NCBI GenBank assembly: GCA_900129675.1
Contig: FSRD01000001.1
Location: 1,725,501 to 1,789,500 of the forward strand
Source of the DNA: Bradyrhizobium erythrophlei
Lineage (GTDB): Bacteria > Pseudomonadota > Alphaproteobacteria > Rhizobiales > Xanthobacteraceae
Direction of reading: 5' to 3'
DNA length: 64,000 nucleotides
Below the pieces are notes generated by a model that was given only the letters and a program-made list of their open reading frames with translations, did no database searches and was not told where the DNA came from. A program made the translations under genes and the position numbers. Each line of letters opens with the position of its first letter. Position 1 is the first letter of the stretch. Shown piece after piece: positions 14,071 through 27,134 of this stretch.

Positions 14071-15327
14071 TCACAGGCTCGCGGTGACCTGCGCGGTCTG
14101 GCAATCGGGGTTGTAGGGCGTCTGTCGCTTGAGCGCCGTGCACAGGGCATAGAGCAAACGATCGCCGACAGTGCGCAAGGCGCGCGCGTGACCGTGGCCG
14201 CGCCGCCGCAGCGCATCGTAACGCCGCCGGGCGGCGGTATCGTGCTGAATGGCGACGCTCGACCAGTGATGGACGGCGTTTTGCAGCCGTTTGTTGCAGG
14301 CCAGACGGCGGATCACGAAGCATTGTTTGCCGCTGCGCCGGGTTACCGGGGCGGTGCCTGCCAAGGCCCGTAAGGCGTGGTAATCTCGCGCCCGCAGAAG
14401 CTCGGTGGCCTCGGTGAGCAGCGTGGCGAGAACGATTCTGCCGATTCCTGGCCAGGAGCGAAGGATCGTCACGTCATGCTGCTCGCGGATTTGCCCCGAT
14501 GGATTCTCCGTCGCCGCTTCGAGCCTGGCGCAGAGCCCGTCCAGAGCCCGGTGCGCCTCCTTGATCTGCTGATTGACCAGGTGCAGTCGCGCCGCGAGGT
14601 TGCGGATATGGGCGCAGGCGGCTTCCGTCGTGCCGGGTGCGACGAACAATGGTGTCTTCCGCAAGGTCTGCAGCACGGTCGCGGCATCGAGGCGACGGAT
14701 ACGATGGTCCTTGAGGATGCGCGTGATCGCCTGCTCGGACACCTTTGCGGCGGTGGCGGGTGTCGGCACCTGTTGCCAAAGCGCGAGGAACCAATCGTCC
14801 GCGACATCGTCGGTCAGTTCGCTTGCCTGCGGATAGTACCGCCACAGCTGCTGGCGGACCCGATTGGCCAGACGGATACGCTCTTGTTGCAGTTCGTCGG
14901 CCATGCGCGACCACTCGCGCAACTCGATCACCAAGGGATCGTCGACCACAAGGCGGCGGAAGGCCTGGCGATCGGTACGCAACGCGCTGCCGAGCACACG
15001 GGCGTCGCGGCTGTCATCCTTGGCCCCGGCGACCGTGAAGCGATCGCGGAAACGGTCGAGCTGCTTGGGGTTGATGGCGAAGACCAGGAAGCCGTGATCG
15101 AGCAGCATCTCCACGACGGGTCCGTGCGGGGTCTCGATCGCCACTGCGATCTGGCGTGGCGCCGCTTTGGTCTTCTCAAGCAGCCAATCGCGCAACTCCG
15201 TCAGCCCGGCTCCGCCATGCGCGAAGTCGCGCTCATTCACATGTCGCCCCTCGACATCAAGCAGGCAGACGCGGTGGCTCTGCGTTGCCCAGTCGATCCC
15301 GACAAACCATTGGACATCGTCGATCAT
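14071..15327 (-). CDS. IS110-family transposase (DEDD recombinase)
   Basis: A 418-residue transposase. The N-terminal RuvC-like DEDD domain shows GIDWATQSHRVCL (first Asp, residue 11), AIETPHGPVVEML (Glu) and the paired aspartates in AKDDSRDARVLGSALRTD. The C-terminal Tnp_IS110/transposase_20 domain contains LRSWPGIGRIVLATLL and ALAGTAPVTRRSGKQ with the serine thought to be the recombination nucleophile. It appears intact. Start ATG 15327 was preferred because the DEDD domain begins there; the frame is open further to 15432. It sits between gpmA and the mpl-like gene, adjacent to a dispersed palindrome at 15550-15625. Confidence 0.93.
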   Translation of the reverse strand: MIDDVQWFVGIDWATQSHRVCLLDVEGRHVNERDFAHGGAGLTELRDWLLEKTKAAPRQIAVAIETPHGPVVEMLLDHGFLVFAINPKQLDRFRDRFTVAGAKDDSRDARVLGSALRTDRQAFRRLVVDDPLVIELREWSRMADELQQERIRLANRVRQQLWRYYPQASELTDDVADDWFLALWQQVPTPATAAKVSEQAITRILKDHRIRRLDAATVLQTLRKTPLFVAPGTTEAACAHIRNLAARLHLVNQQIKEAHRALDGLCARLEAATENPSGQIREQHDVTILRSWPGIGRIVLATLLTEATELLRARDYHALRALAGTAPVTRRSGKQCFVIRRLACNKRLQNAVHHWSSVAIQHDTAARRRYDALRRRGHGHARALRTVGDRLLYALCTALKRQTPYNPDCQTAQVTASL

Positions 15328-15549
15328 CGTTGAGACCTCCCTCGCTCGAGCGGGCCACCGCGATCCTGATCGATCCCTGTACTGGCGCTCTCGGCGCGAC
15401 CTCCTATTGGATCTCGATCGCGGCCGCTCCACCGGGGCGCGGGTCCTACGTCGGTGCTTTTGGCACAGGTGGGTTAGGCGGCTCCCGGCGGATCGGCCCG
15501 TGCTGCCAGTCTACATCGTCAGACCGGCGCCGAACGCTCAAAAGGGTAC
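15328..15549. other. Non-coding flank 5' of the IS110 transposase
   Basis: This GC-rich stretch between the transposase start and the palindromic repeat at 15550 has no convincing gene. In the IS110 subgroup the bridge RNA is encoded on this (5') side of the transposase, so the part nearest 15328 is a second place to look for it; the distal part is probably host DNA. Confidence 0.35.
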
Positions 15550-18910: not shown

Positions 18911-19432
18911 TCACGCCACGGGATTATACGTCGGGCCACGTTTGGCGGCCTGCAGAGCGGCCATTAAGGCCTTGGCAAAACTAGCTTTTTCGTCGGGCCC
19001 CAAAAAACTGCCGATCGAGACGCGGCGGCCTCTGGAGACCAGATAAAGCCTTTCAATGCCGAATTCGGCGTGGATCTTCTGCTCAAATTGCACCCACAGG
19101 GGATTGAGCACCCATTCGACGACATGGCCGCGATGGCTGACCCGGCGCACGCGCAATTCCGATGCCGTCACCACGATGTCCTCGGTGGCCTTGGCGCGGC
19201 GGAAATTGATCCGGAACGCCCAGTAGATCACCAGCACGTCGAGGCTGAAAAAGCCGAACACCGGCCAGGCGCCCATCATCCAGAACGCCACGCCCGCGAC
19301 AAAACTGACGACGCTGATGAACGCCATCAGCACCAGAAAGCCGGTGCGATTGAGCGAACGGTGGGGCGTCAGCCGTGCCGAAAACAGTTTTGGCTCGGGC
19401 GGCTCCGGATCAAAGTCGTTGCCTGTGGTCAT
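18911..19432 (-). CDS. DUF2244 integral membrane protein
   Basis: A 173-residue protein with two adjacent hydrophobic helices (GFLVLMAFISVVSFVAGVAF and the following segment containing FGFFSLDVLVIYWAF) at about residues 31-70. A cytoplasmic beta-rich domain follows, containing VVTASELRVRRVSHRG and RLYLVSRGRRVSIGSFLGP, as in the DUF2244 family, whose role is unknown. Start ATG 19432, only 22 bases from the divergent nth start, so the two promoters must overlap. Its downstream neighbour is the AraC-MGMT gene, and nth is also a DNA-repair gene; whether DUF2244 has any link to repair is not evident. Confidence 0.85.
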   Translation of the reverse strand: MTTGNDFDPEPPEPKLFSARLTPHRSLNRTGFLVLMAFISVVSFVAGVAFWMMGAWPVFGFFSLDVLVIYWAFRINFRRAKATEDIVVTASELRVRRVSHRGHVVEWVLNPLWVQFEQKIHAEFGIERLYLVSRGRRVSIGSFLGPDEKASFAKALMAALQAAKRGPTYNPVA

Positions 19433-19454
19433 CGCGGGTCAGTATACCCGGTTC

Positions 19455-20234
19455 ATGGCCAAAATCATCCGCGCTCTACGCGCCAAAAAAACCCGCGTTC
19501 GCTCCGCACCGGGGAAGCCGGCGAAAAAGGCGGCGCCGGGATCGCCGCCCAAATCCGCAGCGCCCAAAAAATCGATCAAAAAATCGCCAAAGCCAAAGCC
19601 CTGGACCTCCGCCGAGGTCCACGAGGCCTTCAGCCGTTTTCGCGAGGCCAATCCCGAGCCGAAGGGCGAGCTCGAGCACCTCAACCCCTACACGCTGCTG
19701 GTCGCCGTGGTGCTGTCGGCGCAGGCGACCGACGCCGGCGTCAACAAGGCGACGCGCGCGCTGTTTCAAGTCGCCGACACGCCGCAAAAGATGCTCGCGC
19801 TCGGTGAGGACAACGTCCGCGACTACGTCAAAACCATCGGGCTCTACCGCAACAAGGCCAGGAACGTCATCGCGCTGTCGGAAAAACTGATTGCCGAATT
19901 CGGCGGCGAGGTGCCGCGCAGCCGCGCCGAGATCGAAACGCTGCCCGGCGCCGGACGCAAGACCGCCAATGTCGTGCTCAACATGGCCTATGGCGAGCAC
20001 ACCATGGCGGTCGATACCCATGTGTTCCGCGTCGGCAATCGCACCGGTTTGGCGCCGGGCAATACGCCGCTCGAGGTCGAGCTTGGGCTGGAGAAGGTGA
20101 TCCCGTCCGAGTTCATGCTGCATGCGCATCACTGGTTGATCCTGCATGGCCGCTACACCTGTCTGGCCCGCAAGCCGCGCTGCGAGGTATGCCTGATCAA
20201 CGATCTCTGCCGCTGGCCGGAGAAGACGGTGTAG
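19455..20234 (+). CDS. nth: Endonuclease III
   Basis: A 259-residue DNA glycosylase/AP lyase that removes oxidised pyrimidines. After a Lys/Pro/Ala-rich N-terminal tail of about 50 residues come the helix-hairpin-helix motif LPGAGRKTANVVLNMAYG with the catalytic Lys, the catalytic Asp in VDTHVFRVGNR, and the C-terminal 4Fe-4S ligands spaced Cys-6-Cys-2-Cys-5-Cys in CLARKPRCEVCLINDLC. The basic tail makes it longer than E. coli Nth (211 residues), a common alphaproteobacterial feature. The start is ATG 19455; the frame extends upstream into the divergent DUF2244 gene. Confidence 0.96.
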   Translation: MAKIIRALRAKKTRVRSAPGKPAKKAAPGSPPKSAAPKKSIKKSPKPKPWTSAEVHEAFSRFREANPEPKGELEHLNPYTLLVAVVLSAQATDAGVNKATRALFQVADTPQKMLALGEDNVRDYVKTIGLYRNKARNVIALSEKLIAEFGGEVPRSRAEIETLPGAGRKTANVVLNMAYGEHTMAVDTHVFRVGNRTGLAPGNTPLEVELGLEKVIPSEFMLHAHHWLILHGRYTCLARKPRCEVCLINDLCRWPEKTV

Positions 20235-20358
20235 CTTTTTCGCGAGCGCCTTCTCTCCATCTTTCAATTTATAGTGATGCCCCGGCGCGCCCGGCATCGG
20301 CGGCCTCTGAAATATTCGCTCCTCGCCGCGGTTCCTATAATGAGGTACCAGAGGCAGG

Positions 20359-21420
20359 ATGAGTGATATGAATGACAAGGCCGCACTAGTTTCGCTTGCG
20401 ACCTCGGTTCCCCCGCATCTGTTTCATCAGAGACAAGTCCTGGAAGCAGCCAGCAAGCTGTTGGCGGACCGCTATCCGCAGTTCGAAACCATGTCGAGCC
20501 TGTTTGCCAACACCGGAATACGCCACCGCTACGGCGTCAAACCGATCGAATGGTATCTCGAACGGCGCGGCTGGCCCGAGCGAACGCGGGCGTTTCTCGA
20601 AGGCGCGGAGGCGCTGTTTGTCGACGTCGCGCGCAAGGCGCTGGCGCGTGCCGACCTTTCGGCCGGCGATATCGACACTGTCGTCACGGTATGCTCGACC
20701 GGCATTGCAACGCCGACGCTGGAAGCGCGGGTTGCGGGCCAGCTTGGTTTGCGCAGCGACGTGTCGCGCGTGCCGGTATTCGGTCTCGGATGCGCTGGCG
20801 GCGTCTCCGGCCTGTCGATCGCTTCACGGCTGGCGCAGGCGCGGCCGGGCACCAATGTGCTGTTGGTCGCGCTCGAACTCTGCACCCTTGCGGTGCGCCA
20901 TGATGAATTGACCAAGGCCAACGTCGTCGCGGCCAGCCTGTTCGGCGACGGCGCCGCCGCCGCCATTCTGCGCGCCGGCGATGGCGGCGCGACCCGGATC
21001 GAGGCCGCCGGCGAAAAGCAGTGGCCCGATACGCTCGACATCATGGGATGGAGCGTCGATCCCGAAGGTTTTGGCGTGATCTTTCAGCGCACGATTCCCG
21101 ATTTCGTCCGCGATAATATCGGGCCTGCCGTCACGGAGATTCTGTCCCGGATGGAGTTGTCGGCAAACGATATCGATCGCTTCATTTGTCATCCCGGCGG
21201 CACCAAGGTCATTCTCGCGCTTGAACGGGCGCTGTCGCTCGACCAGGGCACGCTCGACCATGAGCGCGAAGTTATCGCCGACTATGGCAACATGTCGTCG
21301 CCCACCGTGCTGTTCGTACTCGAACGCGCACGCGCGCAAGGCCTGCCGTCGCGGTCGCTGCTGACCGCGCTTGGGCCCGGCTTCACCGCAAGCTGCGTCG
21401 CGCTGCGGCACGCGGCGTGA
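20359..21420 (+). CDS. Type III polyketide synthase (chalcone/stilbene synthase-like)
   Basis: A 353-residue thiolase-fold enzyme with the full type III PKS triad: Cys145 in FGLGCAGGVSGL, His278 in FICHPGGTKV and Asn311 in DYGNMSSPT, plus the ending LTALGPGFTASCVALRHA. These homodimeric enzymes extend an acyl-CoA starter with malonyl-CoA and cyclise the product without an acyl carrier protein. Bacterial relatives make alkylpyrones, alkylresorcinols or phloroglucinols. It is followed, with a GTGA stop/start overlap, by an ICMT-like methyltransferase, as in the bpsA-bpsB and srsA-srsB type loci, which points to a methylated long-chain pyrone or resorcinol. The starter cannot be read from sequence. 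Start ATG 20359, or ATG 20368. Confidence 0.9.
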   Translation: MSDMNDKAALVSLATSVPPHLFHQRQVLEAASKLLADRYPQFETMSSLFANTGIRHRYGVKPIEWYLERRGWPERTRAFLEGAEALFVDVARKALARADLSAGDIDTVVTVCSTGIATPTLEARVAGQLGLRSDVSRVPVFGLGCAGGVSGLSIASRLAQARPGTNVLLVALELCTLAVRHDELTKANVVAASLFGDGAAAAILRAGDGGATRIEAAGEKQWPDTLDIMGWSVDPEGFGVIFQRTIPDFVRDNIGPAVTEILSRMELSANDIDRFICHPGGTKVILALERALSLDQGTLDHEREVIADYGNMSSPTVLFVLERARAQGLPSRSLLTALGPGFTASCVALRHAA

Positions 21421-21932
21421 GCCTCGCGGCCGTCATTCTTGCGCTGGTCACGCTGCAGCGGATCGGTGAGCTCGTCTTGTCGCGATACAACACCGGCAGA
21501 TTGAAGGCGCGCGGCGCGATCGAGATCGGCGCCAATCACTATCCGCTAATCGTGGCGGTCCATGCCGCCTGGCTGATCGCGCTGTGGGTCTGGGGCCGCG
21601 ATCAGGACGTGAATCTGCCGGCGCTTGCGCTGTTCGTCGCGCTGCAGGGCTTTCGCTTATGGATTCTCGCAATGCTCGGGCCGCGATGGACCACGCGCAT
21701 CATCGTGCTGCCGGGCGAGCCGCTGGTCACATCCGGACCCTACCAATATTTTTCGCACCCCAATTATGCCGTCGTCGCCGCCGAGATCGCGCTGCTGCCG
21801 CTCGCGCTGCATCTGCCTTTGCTGGCGCTGATTTTCACGGCGTTGAACGCCGCAGTGCTCGTGATCCGGATTCGCGTCGAGGCCCGCGCGCTGTCCGCCG
21901 TCGACGGTCAACGCGCACGCAGGGCGCTGTGA
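21417..21932 (+). CDS. Isoprenylcysteine carboxyl methyltransferase-like membrane methyltransferase
   Basis: A 171-residue integral membrane protein of the ICMT/phospholipid methyltransferase superfamily. The C-terminal half has the SAM-binding signature VTSGPYQYFSHPNYAVVAAE, and several hydrophobic segments surround it. Homologues paired with type III PKSs (BpsB, SrsB) O-methylate alkylpyrones or alkylresorcinols, which is the inferred role here. The start is GTG 21417, overlapping the PKS stop by 4 bases (GTGA); its own stop overlaps the following pump gene in the same manner, so the three are almost certainly translationally coupled. Confidence 0.85.
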   Translation: MSLAAVILALVTLQRIGELVLSRYNTGRLKARGAIEIGANHYPLIVAVHAAWLIALWVWGRDQDVNLPALALFVALQGFRLWILAMLGPRWTTRIIVLPGEPLVTSGPYQYFSHPNYAVVAAEIALLPLALHLPLLALIFTALNAAVLVIRIRVEARALSAVDGQRARRAL

Positions 21933-23467
21933 GCGAGCAGGCGGAGCCTCGAGCGGTCGCGGCGGCCGTGGCGACATGGGCCGGCTTCCTGTTGATGTGC
22001 CTTGGCATGTTCATGGCCATCCTCGACATCCAGGTGGTCGCGACCTCATTGCCGGCGATCCAGCATGCGCTGGCGATTTCCCCGGACGCCATGAGCTGGA
22101 TCCAGACCGCCTATCTGATCGCCGAGGTGATCGCGATCCCCTTGACCGGCCTGTTCACGCGCGTGCTGACCTTGCGGTGGCTGTTCGTAACAGCCGTCTC
22201 GCTGTTTACCCTGGCGTCGATCGGCTGCGCCTATAGCGGCCATTTTGCCGTGCTGCTGGTGTTCCGGGTGGTGCAGGGATTTTCCGGCGGCGTGCTGATC
22301 CCCGCGGTATTCTCCGCAGTATTTTTGCTGTTTCCGCCCCGGCTTCACGCCGTCGCCACCACGGTCGGCGGCGTGGTCGCGGTGCTGGCGCCGACCGTTG
22401 GACCGGTCGTCGGCGGCTGGATCACGGAAACCTGGTCGTGGCCCTGGCTGTTTCTGATCAACGTCATTCCCGGGATGATCGCGGCCTCGGCGGCGCCGTT
22501 GCTGCTGCCGCGTCAGCAAACCGATCTGAACGAACTGACAAGACTGGACGGGCTAACGCTGATCCTGCTGGCGGCGGCGCTTGCCAGCCTCGAGATCGGG
22601 CTGAAGGAAGCGCCGCACCGTGGCTGGTGGTCGCTGACTTGCATCGGCCTGTTGTCGGCAAGCGCCTTCGGTATCGCCCTTTCGGTCCACCGCAGCTTGC
22701 GATCGGCGCATCCGGTCGTGCAACTCCTGACCTTGAAGCGGCGCTCGTTCGCGGCCGGCTGCGCCTTGAGCTTTTGCCTTGGCGTCGGCCTGTTCGGTTC
22801 GGTCTATCTGATGCCGGTCTTCCTCGCCTTCGTGCGCGGCCGTGATGCCTTCGAGATCGGCACCATCATGCTCGTCACCGGGGTCGCGCAACTCGTCACC
22901 GCGCCGCTCGCCGCGATCCTCGAAAGCCGGATCGGCGCCCGCCTGCTGACGGCTTGTGGCTTCGCTTTGTTCGCGCTGGGACTGGGCTTGAGCGCGTTTC
23001 AGCCCCGCACCGCCGATTTCGACGAAATGTTTTTACCGCAAGTGGTGCGCGGCATCGCGATCATGTTCTGCCTGTTGCCGCCGACCCGCATTGCGCTCGG
23101 TGCGCTCCCGGTAGCGGAGGTGGCGGACGCCAGCGGCCTGTTCAACCTGATGCGGAATTTGGGCGGCGCGATCGGCATCGCTCTGATCGATACCATCCTG
23201 TACGGCCGGATCGGAATTTACGCCGAGGATTTTCGCACCCGCCTGCTGGCGGGAGATGTTACGGCCGCGAAGGCGATCGGGCTAAGCGTAGCCGCGTTTG
23301 TGAACCGGCCGCCGGGACCGCCGGACGATGCTGCCGTGGCATTCGTCCGGCCGATGGTCGAAAAGGCCTCGCTCGCATTGTGCATCAACGAGGCCTGGGC
23401 GATGCTCGCCTGCGTCGCGATTGCCGGACTGCTGTTGGTGCCATTGGCGCGGAACCGGTCGGATTGA
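21929..23467 (+). CDS. DHA2-family MFS efflux transporter (EmrB/QacA-like)
   Basis: A 512-residue major facilitator protein, the 14-helix DHA2 length. It has a short polar N-terminus, then WAGFLLMCLGMFMAILDIQVV with the LDIQVV motif typical of EmrB/QacA (motif D1), and the motif C-like stretch VLAPTVGPVVGGWITE that marks drug/H+ antiporters. The start is GTG 21929 in a GTGA overlap with the methyltransferase stop; the longer in-frame extension seen upstream lies inside that gene. Its place after the PKS and methyltransferase suggests export of their product. Confidence 0.9.
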   Translation: MSEQAEPRAVAAAVATWAGFLLMCLGMFMAILDIQVVATSLPAIQHALAISPDAMSWIQTAYLIAEVIAIPLTGLFTRVLTLRWLFVTAVSLFTLASIGCAYSGHFAVLLVFRVVQGFSGGVLIPAVFSAVFLLFPPRLHAVATTVGGVVAVLAPTVGPVVGGWITETWSWPWLFLINVIPGMIAASAAPLLLPRQQTDLNELTRLDGLTLILLAAALASLEIGLKEAPHRGWWSLTCIGLLSASAFGIALSVHRSLRSAHPVVQLLTLKRRSFAAGCALSFCLGVGLFGSVYLMPVFLAFVRGRDAFEIGTIMLVTGVAQLVTAPLAAILESRIGARLLTACGFALFALGLGLSAFQPRTADFDEMFLPQVVRGIAIMFCLLPPTRIALGALPVAEVADASGLFNLMRNLGGAIGIALIDTILYGRIGIYAEDFRTRLLAGDVTAAKAIGLSVAAFVNRPPGPPDDAAVAFVRPMVEKASLALCINEAWAMLACVAIAGLLLVPLARNRSD

Positions 23468-23577
23468 CCTCGCGGCACCAGCCGCGCGGTATGCCATCGA
23501 CGATCTCTGCCAGTGGCCTCACACGACGGTTTGCGGCATGCATCATGCCTTGATAGCCTCGTCCGGCATTCGGCAGA

Positions 23578-24738
23578 ATGAGTGAGGGGATTGCCTTGAG
23601 TCAGCAGGAACAAACCAGCCCGCCGCCCGCAATGAAGATAGCTGCGGCGCCGCCTCCGCCGGCTGCTCCTCCGGCCTCGCCGCCGCCGACTGCATTGCGC
23701 AATTCCTGGGGCCGTTTCGCGATTCCGCTGTTCGCGGTGCTCGCCGCATTCGCCTTTATCGCGCTGGCGACGCTGCGCTGGGATGCATGGGTCGGTAATG
23801 CCACGGTGCAGACCACGAATGACGCCTATGTCCGCGCCGAGATGACCCGGCTGAGCAGCCGGGTCGCCGGCGAAATCCTCACCGTTGCCGCCAACGATTT
23901 CCAGCGCGTCAAGGCCGGCGATTTGCTGATTCAGATCGACCCCGCCGACTATCAGGCCCAGGTCGCCCAGGCCGAGGCCAGCGTCGCCGCGGCGCAAGCC
24001 GCGCTCGACAATTTAAGCAACCAGGTCGAACTGCAATACGCGACCATCGCGCAGGCCGAAGCCCAGCTTGTATCGGCGGCCGCGCAGGAGGTCGAGGCAA
24101 AGCAGGAACAGGAGCGCCAGCAATCGCTGTCGCAGACCGAATCCGGCACAAGGCAAAAATTCGAACAGGCGACCGCGGCCTACGCCAAGGCGCAGGCCGA
24201 TGTTCGCGCCAGCCGGGCCGTGATCGCCGCGCAACGTCACCAGATGGAAGTGCTGGCCGGAACCAAGAAGCAGCGCGCCGCGGATGTGCTGGGCGCGCAG
24301 GCCGCTCTTGCGTCGGCGCGGCTCAAGCTCGGCTATACCAAAATCGTCGCGCCGTTCGACGGCGTCGTCGGCGAGCGCCAGGTCCAACCGGGCGATTACG
24401 TCAATATCGGCAGCAACCTCATCAATGTCGTGCCGCTGCCCAACGTCTATGTTATAGCCAATTACAAGGAAACCCAGCTCACGCGGGTCAAGCCCGGCCA
24501 ATCCGTCGACATCACGGTCGACAGTTTTCCGAACGAGAAGCTGCATGGCCGCGTCGAGCGGGTCTCGCCCGCCAGCGGCTCGCAATTCGCGCTTCTGCCG
24601 CCGGATAACGCCACCGGCAATTTCACCAAGGTGGTCCAGCGCGTTCCGGTCCGGATCGAACTCGACAAGAACCAGCCGTTGCTGGAGCGCCTGCTGCCGG
24701 GAATGTCGGTCGTGACCAACATTCAGACCGATGACTGA
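23578..24738 (+). CDS. HlyD/EmrA-family periplasmic adaptor
   Basis: A 386-residue membrane-fusion protein. A cytoplasmic Pro/Ala-rich N-terminus (about 40 residues) leads to one membrane anchor (FAIPLFAVLAAFAFIALATL). The barrel-sandwich half-motif TNDAYVRAEMTRLSSRVAGE, a long coiled-coil hairpin (about residues 120-240, rich in Ala/Gln/Glu), and the second half-motif LGYTKIVAPFDGVVGERQV follow. It should link an inner-membrane DHA2 pump to an outer-membrane channel. It starts 110 bases after the first pump and overlaps the next pump by 8 bases, so it may serve both. Confidence 0.92.
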   Translation: MSEGIALSQQEQTSPPPAMKIAAAPPPPAAPPASPPPTALRNSWGRFAIPLFAVLAAFAFIALATLRWDAWVGNATVQTTNDAYVRAEMTRLSSRVAGEILTVAANDFQRVKAGDLLIQIDPADYQAQVAQAEASVAAAQAALDNLSNQVELQYATIAQAEAQLVSAAAQEVEAKQEQERQQSLSQTESGTRQKFEQATAAYAKAQADVRASRAVIAAQRHQMEVLAGTKKQRAADVLGAQAALASARLKLGYTKIVAPFDGVVGERQVQPGDYVNIGSNLINVVPLPNVYVIANYKETQLTRVKPGQSVDITVDSFPNEKLHGRVERVSPASGSQFALLPPDNATGNFTKVVQRVPVRIELDKNQPLLERLLPGMSVVTNIQTDD

Positions 24739-26368
24739 CACGATCGCAGCCGACCAGGCGCTCGGGCCGGTCTCGCGCGGCGGCATCGCGCGCCACCCGC
24801 TGTTCGCGGTCGCCGCCGTGCTGCTCGGCTCTTTTCTGGCCAATTTCGACAGCCGGCTGACATCGGTCGGATTGCCGGATCTGCGCGGCGCCTTTTCGTT
24901 GGGGTTCGACGAGGGCGCCTGGCTCAGCACCGCATCGATCGGTTCGCAGATCTTTATCGCGCCGGCCGTTGCCTGGCTCGCCACCGTATTCGGCTTGCGC
25001 CGCGTGCTTGGCATTCCAAGCCTTGCCTATGCCCTGGTCTCGCTGACAATCCCGTTCGTCCACGACTACACCACGCTGATCGCGCTCAGCATCGTGCACG
25101 GCATGTTGCTGGGGACGTTCGTGCCCGCGACGCTGATGATTGTGTTCCGCAATTTGCCGATCCGGTGGTGGCTGCCGGCGATCTCGATCTATTCCATCCG
25201 GGTCGGCTTCGCGCTCGACAGCGGCACCTCGCTGGTCGGCTTTTACGTCGACCATTGGGGCTGGGAGTGGCTGTACTGGCAGGGCGTGGCGATCGCGCCG
25301 CTGATGGGCTTGATGGTCTATCTCGGTACGCCGGCCGAACCGGTCAACCGCAAGCTGCTGCGGGATGCCGACTGGGGCGGCATGCTGCTGCTCGGCACCT
25401 CCGTCTCGATGATCTATGCCGGTCTCGACCAGGGCAATCGGCTGGACTGGCTGGAATCCGGCACGGTCATGGCGCTGCTTTTGGGCGGCGGCGTGCTGTT
25501 TGTCCTGTTCCTGATCAACGAGGCGCTGGTTCCCGAGCCCTGGGCCCACGTCAATGTGCTGTTCTCGCGCAATGTCGGGCTCTCGCTGGTCGTCATCCTG
25601 CTCTACACCCTCACCAGCCTGTCCAATTCATCGCTGGTGCCGAATTTTCTCAGCGTCGTCGGTCAGCTCAGGCCCGAACAGACCGGTGAGCTGTTGCTGA
25701 CATACGGCGCGCTGCCGATGTTCGCGCTGGTGCCCGTATCGATCTTTCTGCTGCGGCATTTCGATGCCCGCACCGTGCTCGTTGTCGGGCTCTCGGCTTT
25801 CGCCGCGGCCAATTTGCTGGGCACGCAACTCAGCCACGACTGGGCGCGCGGCGATTTCGTCACCATCGTCGTTTTGCTATCGATCGGGCAAGCGTTCACC
25901 TTGCTGCCGATCATCATCCTCGCTGTGTCCAATTCCGATCCGGCCCGCGCGACCTCGTTCGCCGCCTATATCCAGATCATGCGGCTCGGCGGAGCCGAGA
26001 TCGGCGTGGCGCTGATGGGGACCTGGCTGCGCGTGCGTGAGCAGATCCACTCCAATTATCTCGGACAGCACATTGAAAACGGCAGCGTCGACGTCACGCG
26101 CATGCTCAAGCAGCTCTCGGATTTCTTTGCCAGCCACGGCGCCGGAACAGCCGCGGCGCGCGCCATGGGAACGCTTTCGGCCCAGGTGGCACGCGAGGCG
26201 AATACGCTGGCCTATATCGACGGCTTCTGGCTGTGTTTCTGGCTGGCGATGGTCGCGCTGTTGCTCACGGCGTTGATCACCCGGGCGCCGCCGGGTCCAT
26301 TCACGCCGGCGCCCTTCAGTTTTGCCAAGGGTGTGCTGCAGAAGTGCGGCGTAGCTGTGCCGCCGTAA
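24731..26368 (+). CDS. DHA2-family MFS transporter, second pump
   Basis: A 545-residue 14-helix MFS protein. The N-terminal helix region AVLLGSFLANFDSRLTSVGL aligns with motif D1 of EmrB-like pumps, but the usual LDxTVVNVAL is replaced by the variant FDSRLTSVGLPDL, setting it apart from the first pump. The C-terminal part has a hydrophilic loop (EQIHSNYLGQHIENGSVDVT) before the last helices, as in DHA2 proteins that work with an adaptor. Start ATG 24731 overlaps the end of the HlyD gene by 8 bases, so it is the more intimate partner of that adaptor. Confidence 0.9.
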   Translation: MTDTIAADQALGPVSRGGIARHPLFAVAAVLLGSFLANFDSRLTSVGLPDLRGAFSLGFDEGAWLSTASIGSQIFIAPAVAWLATVFGLRRVLGIPSLAYALVSLTIPFVHDYTTLIALSIVHGMLLGTFVPATLMIVFRNLPIRWWLPAISIYSIRVGFALDSGTSLVGFYVDHWGWEWLYWQGVAIAPLMGLMVYLGTPAEPVNRKLLRDADWGGMLLLGTSVSMIYAGLDQGNRLDWLESGTVMALLLGGGVLFVLFLINEALVPEPWAHVNVLFSRNVGLSLVVILLYTLTSLSNSSLVPNFLSVVGQLRPEQTGELLLTYGALPMFALVPVSIFLLRHFDARTVLVVGLSAFAAANLLGTQLSHDWARGDFVTIVVLLSIGQAFTLLPIIILAVSNSDPARATSFAAYIQIMRLGGAEIGVALMGTWLRVREQIHSNYLGQHIENGSVDVTRMLKQLSDFFASHGAGTAAARAMGTLSAQVAREANTLAYIDGFWLCFWLAMVALLLTALITRAPPGPFTPAPFSFAKGVLQKCGVAVPP

Positions 26369-26381
26369 GCGGCAGATGCCG

Positions 26382-27134
26382 TCAACGCGCGGAAACTTCC
26401 CGCCGCCGCGCCTGCTCGATCAGTTCCGGCCGCGGGCCGCTCAAGCGCTTGTGCATGTGAACCATGAAGGCCATGCCGAACAAAGGCGTCGCCAGATTGA
26501 GGATCGGGATCGACACGAACGCTGCGATGATCAGGCCTGCGGTGAACACGATGGCGGCGTTTTCCTTGCGCATCGCCTTGGCTTCCGCCGGCGAGCGGAA
26601 CCGCATCGCCGCGAGTTCGAAATATTCACGTCCCAACAGCCACGCGGTCGCGATGAAGAACGCGATGAAGCCGGCGCCCGCGACGAACACGAAGGGCAGC
26701 GCGATCAGATAGACCAGGATGGTCAGCAGCGCGGTCTTGACGCCTTCCGGGATTGCGACGCCGAGCGGCAGCGCGGTGCCGGGAAGCTCCGCCGGATAAT
26801 GTTCGCGCTCGACATGATCGGCGACGTCGTCGACGAACACGCTGGCGACCAGCGAGGTGATTGCGGGCATCAGGAAGATGCCGCCGAGCACGACACCGAG
26901 GCCGGCGGCGATCGAAATGATCCAGGCGAGGACATTGAGCGTCGAGTGGAAGCCGGGGCCCAGCATGGCCTCGGCCCAGGTCTCGCCATTCTCCGCAAGC
27001 CAGCTCAACAACCGCTGCAATCCGATCGCCAGCACCGTGACCAGCACCAGCGCCAGCCCGATCGAGCGCCATAGAATGGTGCGCATCGGCGGCGACAGGA
27101 TCTGCGATAGCGCCTTGACGGCGGCGTCCAACAT
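26382..27134 (-). CDS. EI24/CysZ-like integral membrane protein
   Basis: A 250-residue membrane protein with about four hydrophobic segments (LVLVTVLAIGLQRLL, LAWIISIAAGLGVVLGGIFL, LLTILVYLIALPFVFVAGAG, AAIVFTAGLIIAAFVSIPIL). The blocks PPMRTILWRSIGLAL near the N-terminus and ATPLFGMAFMVHMHKRL near the C-terminus are typical of the EI24/CysZ family. CysZ is a sulfate permease, but many family members are unstudied, so sulfate transport here is only a possibility. It lies 7 bases after the end of the indolepyruvate oxidoreductase gene on the same strand and is probably co-transcribed with it. Confidence 0.8.
   Translation of the reverse strand: MLDAAVKALSQILSPPMRTILWRSIGLALVLVTVLAIGLQRLLSWLAENGETWAEAMLGPGFHSTLNVLAWIISIAAGLGVVLGGIFLMPAITSLVASVFVDDVADHVEREHYPAELPGTALPLGVAIPEGVKTALLTILVYLIALPFVFVAGAGFIAFFIATAWLLGREYFELAAMRFRSPAEAKAMRKENAAIVFTAGLIIAAFVSIPILNLATPLFGMAFMVHMHKRLSGPRPELIEQARRREVSAR

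Follow-up and report, generated by a model that had tools for sequence, protein, structure and literature searches.

SrsB of Streptomyces and BpsB of Bacillus are methyltransferases of the ICMT type, and the Streptomyces set also includes SrsC. Both methyltransferases are partners of a type III polyketide synthase (PKS), in the pairs SrsA-SrsB and BpsA-BpsB (by the titles cited in PMC5916927). A similarly composed pair lies in the window analysed here, a stretch of 64,000 nucleotides from Bradyrhizobium erythrophlei (positions 1725501-1789500 of contig FSRD01000001.1, in an 11.7 Mb genome), but its third gene encodes a DHA2 pump (P1), and the likeness to SrsAB and BpsAB is one of description. 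Genes for a HlyD/EmrA-like adaptor and for a second, divergent DHA2 pump (P2) follow downstream. The five genes behave as two separable units, module 1 (PKS-ICMT-P1) and module 2 (HlyD-P2). With a probability of about 0.7, we read module 1 as a self-contained biosynthesis-export operon with its own regulatory region, and HlyD-P2 as a separate unit placed downstream of it by recombination.

Other described systems share parts of this arrangement. Of the Mycobacterium enzymes PKS10, PKS11 and MMAR_2474 (PMC5916927), PKS11 is the closest of all solved structures, at about 32% identity, and shares a tryptophan associated with resorcinol formation. In M. smegmatis, pks10 belongs to an operon of three genes, and the alkylresorcinol it gives rise to undergoes O-methylation, but in mycobacteria oxidation to quinones follows, unlike in the scheme proposed here (PMC5916927). 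RpsA from Rhodospirillum centenum and RePKS from Rhizobium etli are alphaproteobacterial type III PKSs that accept long acyl-CoAs (PMC6274091). The likeness to RpsA is again by description, and the PKS of R. etli p42d (RHE_RS29540), a candidate for RePKS, is 62% identical to that of the window; the genes listed up to 7 kb from it include neither an ICMT nor a DHA2 pump. Cyanobacterial hierridin-like and MKS clusters also combine a type III PKS with a methyltransferase, the Microcystis MKS together with an MFS transporter, but they are PKS-methyltransferase-oxidoreductase sets or type I/III hybrids from another phylum (PMC8086630). HlyD-P2 resembles EmrAB of E. coli in its overlapping adaptor and DHA2 pump genes, although both of its proteins score under the NCBIfam cut-offs. 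For the PKS-ICMT-DHA2 trio, no prior description was met in the literature searched at title and abstract level, a search that left subscription journals mostly outside.

An earlier note on this DNA, made from the letters and open reading frames (ORFs) alone, had described five co-directional genes and a synthase with intact Cys145, His278 and Asn311. Both descriptions are borne out: the genes are present, their coordinates and overlaps agree with the ORFs, every assignment is backed by Pfam, and the three residues were found at those positions. The ICMT-like gene and P1 each begin with a GTG that overlaps the TGA of the gene before, the HlyD and P2 genes overlap by 8 bases, and a gap of 110 bases (23468-23577) separates P1 from HlyD. 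The Pfam matches were Chal_sti_synt_N (1.2e-20) and Chal_sti_synt_C (4e-17) for the PKS, ICMT (2.1e-24) for the methyltransferase, HlyD_3 (4.6e-19) for the adaptor and MFS_1 (1.9e-46 and 2.7e-22) for the two pumps. P1 belongs to the EmrB subfamily TIGR00711 (355 bits, over the cut-off of 230.2), and P2 with 161.3 bits falls under the same cut-off, as the adaptor does for the EmrA/EmrK subfamily TIGR00998 (262.4 bits, cut-off 390.8); EmrB structures were the sole matches of P2 in the Protein Data Bank (PDB) at E 0.001.

The separability of the modules is seen in a genus sample of 146 genomes, evenly drawn from a larger group and all searched for both PKS and P2. Both were found in 28 genomes, PKS only in 10, P2 only in 51 and neither in 57, so counted that the PKS genomes are 38 of 43 with matches (G028, G039, G057, G088 and G125, with paralogues of 33-38% only, were left out; G033 with a split match and G049 with fragments are included) and the P2 genomes 79 of 80 (G012, at 58%, was left out and the partial G035 kept). 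P2 is present in 51 of the 108 genomes without a close PKS and absent from 10 of the 38 with one. When the window's genes were mapped onto 38 PKS loci taken from the 37 other PKS genomes, PKS-ICMT-P1 was located away from nth in 10 loci, and no HlyD-P2 orthologue (>50% identity) was found within about 17 kb at any of these ten. Four further loci have nth-PKS-ICMT-P1-EI24 without HlyD-P2, two have nth-PKS-ICMT ending at a contig end, two have PKS-ICMT elsewhere without P1, and three are truncated or broken (L065, L066, L068). The gene order of the window does recur in relatives, although rarely, in one of the 38 loci (L053) and additionally in strain ARR65 (L112).

The interval between nth and the right border gene, which we take to be EI24, is a variable-content site (20235-26381) with at least five states: empty, HlyD-P2, the PKS module, and both modules in either of two orders. 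For these comparisons, nth was taken from 19458 onward. All 14 loci examined from genomes without a close PKS (L072-L084, L089) have nth-HlyD-P2-EI24, as do all four from genomes with the PKS elsewhere (L085-L088), and G051, G065 and G098 carry HlyD-P2 at a distance from the PKS (L070, L090, L091). EI24 was present in 19 of the 20 genomes searched among the 57 with neither module, and nth directly adjoins it in 18 of these 19; the nineteenth (L222) has two short P2 remnants in between. This amounts to a natural experiment: at one and the same site, some strains have only module 1, some only HlyD-P2, some both modules in one or the other order, and some have none.

Part of the gap between P1 and HlyD is a decayed copy of the 3' end of nth (41 of 52 positions identical, E 4e-8), a rearrangement scar whose match continues into the spacer that separates nth from HlyD in some relatives (L036, 73% over 98 bases; L046, 71% over 108 bases). 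Tested against the same kind of nth tails, 19 further gaps between these genes, from 12 genomes with that of the window among them, gave no match at E 0.01. In trees of the modules (rows with >35% gaps left out; 27, 23 and 28 of 28 rows kept), the HlyD-P2 of the window is sister to that of G102 and G138 with a support of 0.993, both genomes being among the closest by flanking-gene identity, and its PKS-ICMT-P1 groups with G051 and G074, both of the nth-PKS-ICMT-P1-EI24 layout. The nth-tail scar would thus explain the window's gene order by recombination: a donor segment with an nth end followed by module 1 may have recombined between the resident nth and HlyD, leaving the scar behind.

Module 1 also has its own conserved upstream element. 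Across 113 non-redundant PKS upstreams, most of those from Bradyrhizobium share a TCAM-N6-KTGA dyad, then a spacer, then GAAAT-N17-GTT, with 30-33 bases between dyad and GAAAT in 32 of 35 cases. The full pattern, drawn up after viewing the sequences and not as a blind test, is present in 23 of the 32 upstreams at the nth site and in 12 of the 18 from elsewhere in Bradyrhizobium, compared to a mean of 0 in shuffles (200 rounds), and it was found in none of 5 Nitrobacter and none of 58 other alphaproteobacterial upstreams (0/63). In the whole genome the combined pattern occurs once, upstream of the window PKS, with none for the reversed control; the dyad TCAAYTTATAKTGA at up to 1 mismatch likewise has a single genome match, here, but with two for the reversed control it is not significant alone. 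The dyad was not found before HlyD, where the scores of 44 upstreams do not exceed those of shuffled sequences. The gap has one sigma-70-like site (23550-23579), as many as expected by chance (1.0 in shuffles). Within Bradyrhizobium, the element accompanies module 1 to different chromosomal sites. The dyad may serve as an operator, and the GAAAT-N17-GTT layout resembles the promoters of extracytoplasmic-function sigma factors.

PKS-ICMT is the core of module 1, and P1 is an addition common to Bradyrhizobium and several other genera. In the genus sample, the ICMT gene adjoins the PKS in 37 of the 38 loci and P1 is next in 33. Among the named loci, the best 80 of at least 556 PKS loci and with Bradyrhizobium as the closest named relatives of the window PKS, the corresponding numbers are 69 and 50. 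For the class, 289 genomes were searched, 54 had a PKS match at E ≤ 1e-60, and 29 loci besides that of the window were mapped, with ICMT after the PKS in 28 and P1 next in 3. Loci in which the ICMT gene is missing are the broken L066, ten Rhizobium loci (L146-L154, L161), and L116 and L190 at contig ends. These ten Rhizobium PKSs and that of R. etli CFN 42 plasmid p42d (L201) have about 62% identity and neither ICMT nor P1 directly downstream. P1 itself has about 57-62% identity in Rhizobium, Phyllobacterium, Bosea, Magnetospirillum and others. Clustering of the neighbours in 33 loci with and without P1 gave no third gene family common to most loci, and one neighbour family of about 484 amino acids in 6 of the 33; a listing of neighbour genes for 17 loci, mostly those lacking P1 or ICMT and with two more Rhizobium loci among them, likewise gave no such shared family. 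No linked oxidoreductase or hydroxylase, as in SrsABC/HidABC-like sets, was found among the window's ORFs between nth and EI24.

The synthase is a thiolase-fold, CHS-like enzyme with the Cys-His-Asn triad of type III PKSs, which is invariant in 127 of 127 non-identical PKS sequences (the window's counted in). It occupies the single PF00195 place in the source genome, a family that by itself is not very specific, with matches in 5 of 14 control genomes, 3 of them above the cut-off. PKS11 is the nearest solved enzyme by profile (260 bits; THNS second with 222) and the structure model (pLDDT 87) matches its fold with Z 45.8 and an rmsd of 2.1 over 343 aligned residues, CylI (44.1) and THNS (43.4) being near. 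Trp231, also invariant in 127 of 127 sequences, aligns with Trp230 of PKS11, and this position corresponds to the Trp281 of ArsB that is needed for resorcinols and is found in PKS11/ArsB-type alkylresorcinol/alkylpyrone synthases (ArsB equivalence from PMC5916927); a product switch by ArsB W281G and ArsC G284W has been described (PMC6274091). The methyltransferase model (pLDDT 91) matches Ma-ICMT (4a2n; Z 15.5, rmsd 3.1, 163 aligned), so that an ICMT-fold enzyme adjoins the PKS as in SrsAB/BpsAB-like pairs. By sequence, it had no PDB match at E 0.01, and by Foldseek none at E 0.001, ICMT structures being best at E 0.02-0.09.

Judged from sequence and models, the probable role of the three-gene operon is to synthesise a greasy aromatic or pyrone compound, methylate it and export it, and the best reading of the product is a methylated alkyl-resorcinol or alkyl-pyrone, made by a pathway with its own pump. 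Starting from a fatty acyl-CoA, the PKS would lengthen the chain with malonyl-CoA, methylmalonyl-CoA or both and cyclise it, giving an alkyl-resorcinol (or resorcylic acid) or an alkyl-pyrone. This lipophilic product would then be O-methylated by the membrane methyltransferase and carried by P1, probably a proton antiporter, across the inner membrane. HlyD-P2 would be a separate EmrAB-like exporter, resident at the nth site of many Bradyrhizobium.

The earlier note had instead proposed one PKS-methyltransferase-dual pump-HlyD cassette with a dedicated tripartite export arm. The PKS-ICMT pair with a linked DHA2 pump stands; the five-gene unit is replaced by the smaller one, PKS-ICMT-P1 with its own conserved upstream element, since the modules assort apart, those of the window have different nearest relatives and the order is rare. 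The conserved element on module 1 only and the scar between the modules point the same way, and we consider it unlikely that the adaptor and both pumps together export the product, with HlyD-P2 taking over from P1 in the periplasm. Several observations nevertheless favour such a cassette or otherwise weigh against our reading. The five genes are co-directional, and a terminator search of the 110-base gap found none, so read-through into HlyD is possible. PKS and P2 co-occur in the genus above chance (28 of 38 against 51 of 108; Fisher p = 0.0076, uncorrected for descent), and the commonest layout, nth-HlyD-P2-PKS-ICMT-P1-EI24, is found in 16 of the 38 loci. In L052, L120 and L125, all away from nth, distant HlyD/DHA2 pairs (33-35% and 27-28% identity) are located downstream of P1, on its strand in L052 and on the opposite strand in the other two. 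Because of this co-occurrence, the commonest layout and these distant pairs, module 1 might cooperate with an adaptor-pump pair. The EmrB of E. coli works with an adaptor, and P1 is in the EmrB subfamily, yet no adaptor is encoded in module 1. Nor is P1 obligatory, as the search for it behind ICMT gave nothing in 23 of the 29 class loci, with 2 further loci cut off. The grouping of module 1 with G051 and G074 has a support of 0.81 only, and its raw identity is highest to G031 (84.9%) and G023 (84.4%). The scar was looked for and not found in L053 and L112, which have the same order as the window; that order may therefore have a separate origin there, or the scar may have decayed. Finally, 9 of the 32 upstreams at the nth site and 6 of the 18 from elsewhere in Bradyrhizobium lack the strict upstream element; among the nth-site misfits, L032 and L033 keep the dyad and have GTC in place of GTT, and L049, L051, L065, L106, L109, L110 and L130 fail both parts.

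Two further alternatives concern the product of the self-contained operon that we favour. The PKS could make a short aromatic polyketide, as DpgA or THNS do, or a heptaketide pyrone of the RePKS type, with the ICMT acting on it or on another substrate. DpgA (NF042429) is its best NCBIfam match and THNS (1u0m) its top PDB match by single-sequence search, and RePKS, for which the similar p42d enzyme is the candidate, has been reported to make a heptaketide pyrone, but RePKS also makes tri- and tetraketide pyrones from C4-C18 acyl-CoAs (PMC6274091). The DpgA score of 156.7 bits is, moreover, far under the cut-off of 425, PKS11 comes first by profile and by fold, though the Z values of CylI and THNS are close, and an ICMT partner suggests a membrane-soluble substrate, all of which makes this doubtful. 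It is likewise rather improbable that P1 serves in self-protection or as a general drug pump while the PKS product is a phenolic lipid retained by the membrane or envelope. The alkylresorcinols of Azotobacter are components of the cyst coat (PMC6274091) and many PKS-ICMT pairs have no P1 alongside, but P1 follows close behind ICMT over a wide divergence (57-62% in whole matches from Rhizobium, Bosea and Magnetospirillum). Much more tentatively than the self-contained operon itself, we suggest that PKS-ICMT-DHA2 could be an unnamed, mobile and dedicated phenolic-lipid or pyrone export operon of the Alphaproteobacteria. In Bradyrhizobium, it would be under a private dyad-plus-promoter switch, by which a methylated lipid would be released on a specific cue and act outside the cell, and at the nth site it would repeatedly have met a second exporter that could be recruited for crossing the outer membrane.

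Strains STM 3843 and STM 3809, which we take to be members of the comparison of Nod-independent Bradyrhizobium, each have a single PF00195 place, which is the nth-site PKS (L105, L110). For this reason, BRADO0151, a type III PKS of photosynthetic Bradyrhizobium listed among the genes of Nod-independent Bradyrhizobium, is likely the orthologue of the window PKS, and since its Tn5 mutant was unaltered in symbiotic performance (PMC3899966), free-living cells or the cell envelope may be a more promising place than nodulation to look for the product.

Table 1. Features of the locus and its borders; positions are those of the window, except for the distant pairs, which are given with their loci
Feature	Position	Strand	Basis
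nth (endonuclease III), left border of the variable site	19317..20234	+	longest ORF; Pfam, NCBIfam
Imperfect dyad TCAA-N6-GTGA, putative operator of module 1	20264..20277	+	conserved upstream of most Bradyrhizobium PKS genes
Promoter-like element GAAAT-N17-GTTCC	20309..20335	+	conserved in Bradyrhizobium PKS upstreams
Type III polyketide synthase (PKS)	20359..21420	+	Pfam, triad C145/H278/N311, W231, structure model
ICMT-fold membrane methyltransferase	21417..21932	+	Pfam, fold match to 4a2n
DHA2 (EmrB-type) pump P1, third gene of module 1	21929..23467	+	Pfam, TIGR00711
Decayed copy of the nth 3' end, rearrangement scar	23481..23530	+	match to 20179-20230
HlyD/EmrA-like adaptor, module 2	23578..24738	+	Pfam, NCBIfam, locus mapping
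Divergent DHA2 pump P2, module 2	24731..26368	+	Pfam, NCBIfam, PDB sequence search, locus mapping
Right border gene of the variable site, labelled EI24	26382..27134	-	ORF list, locus mapping
Distant HlyD and DHA2 pump genes	L052 11853-14184; L120 10702-13072; L125 10678-13048		locus mapping

Some individual loci and one neighbouring gene may be mentioned in addition. In two of the broken loci, the PKS is apparently disrupted in different ways, with pieces on opposite strands on contig C624 of G049 (L066) and with a split match on contig C217 of G033 (L065). About 5 kb upstream of the locus, the window has an ORF on the minus strand (14071-15432) that we presume, from its motif, to encode an IS110-type transposase. 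Genome G145 carries two copies of PKS-ICMT-P1 on contig C1, at 2738280-2739323 and 3038329-3039372 (L058, L059) and thus about 300 kb apart, and their equal PKS scores suggest a recent duplication.

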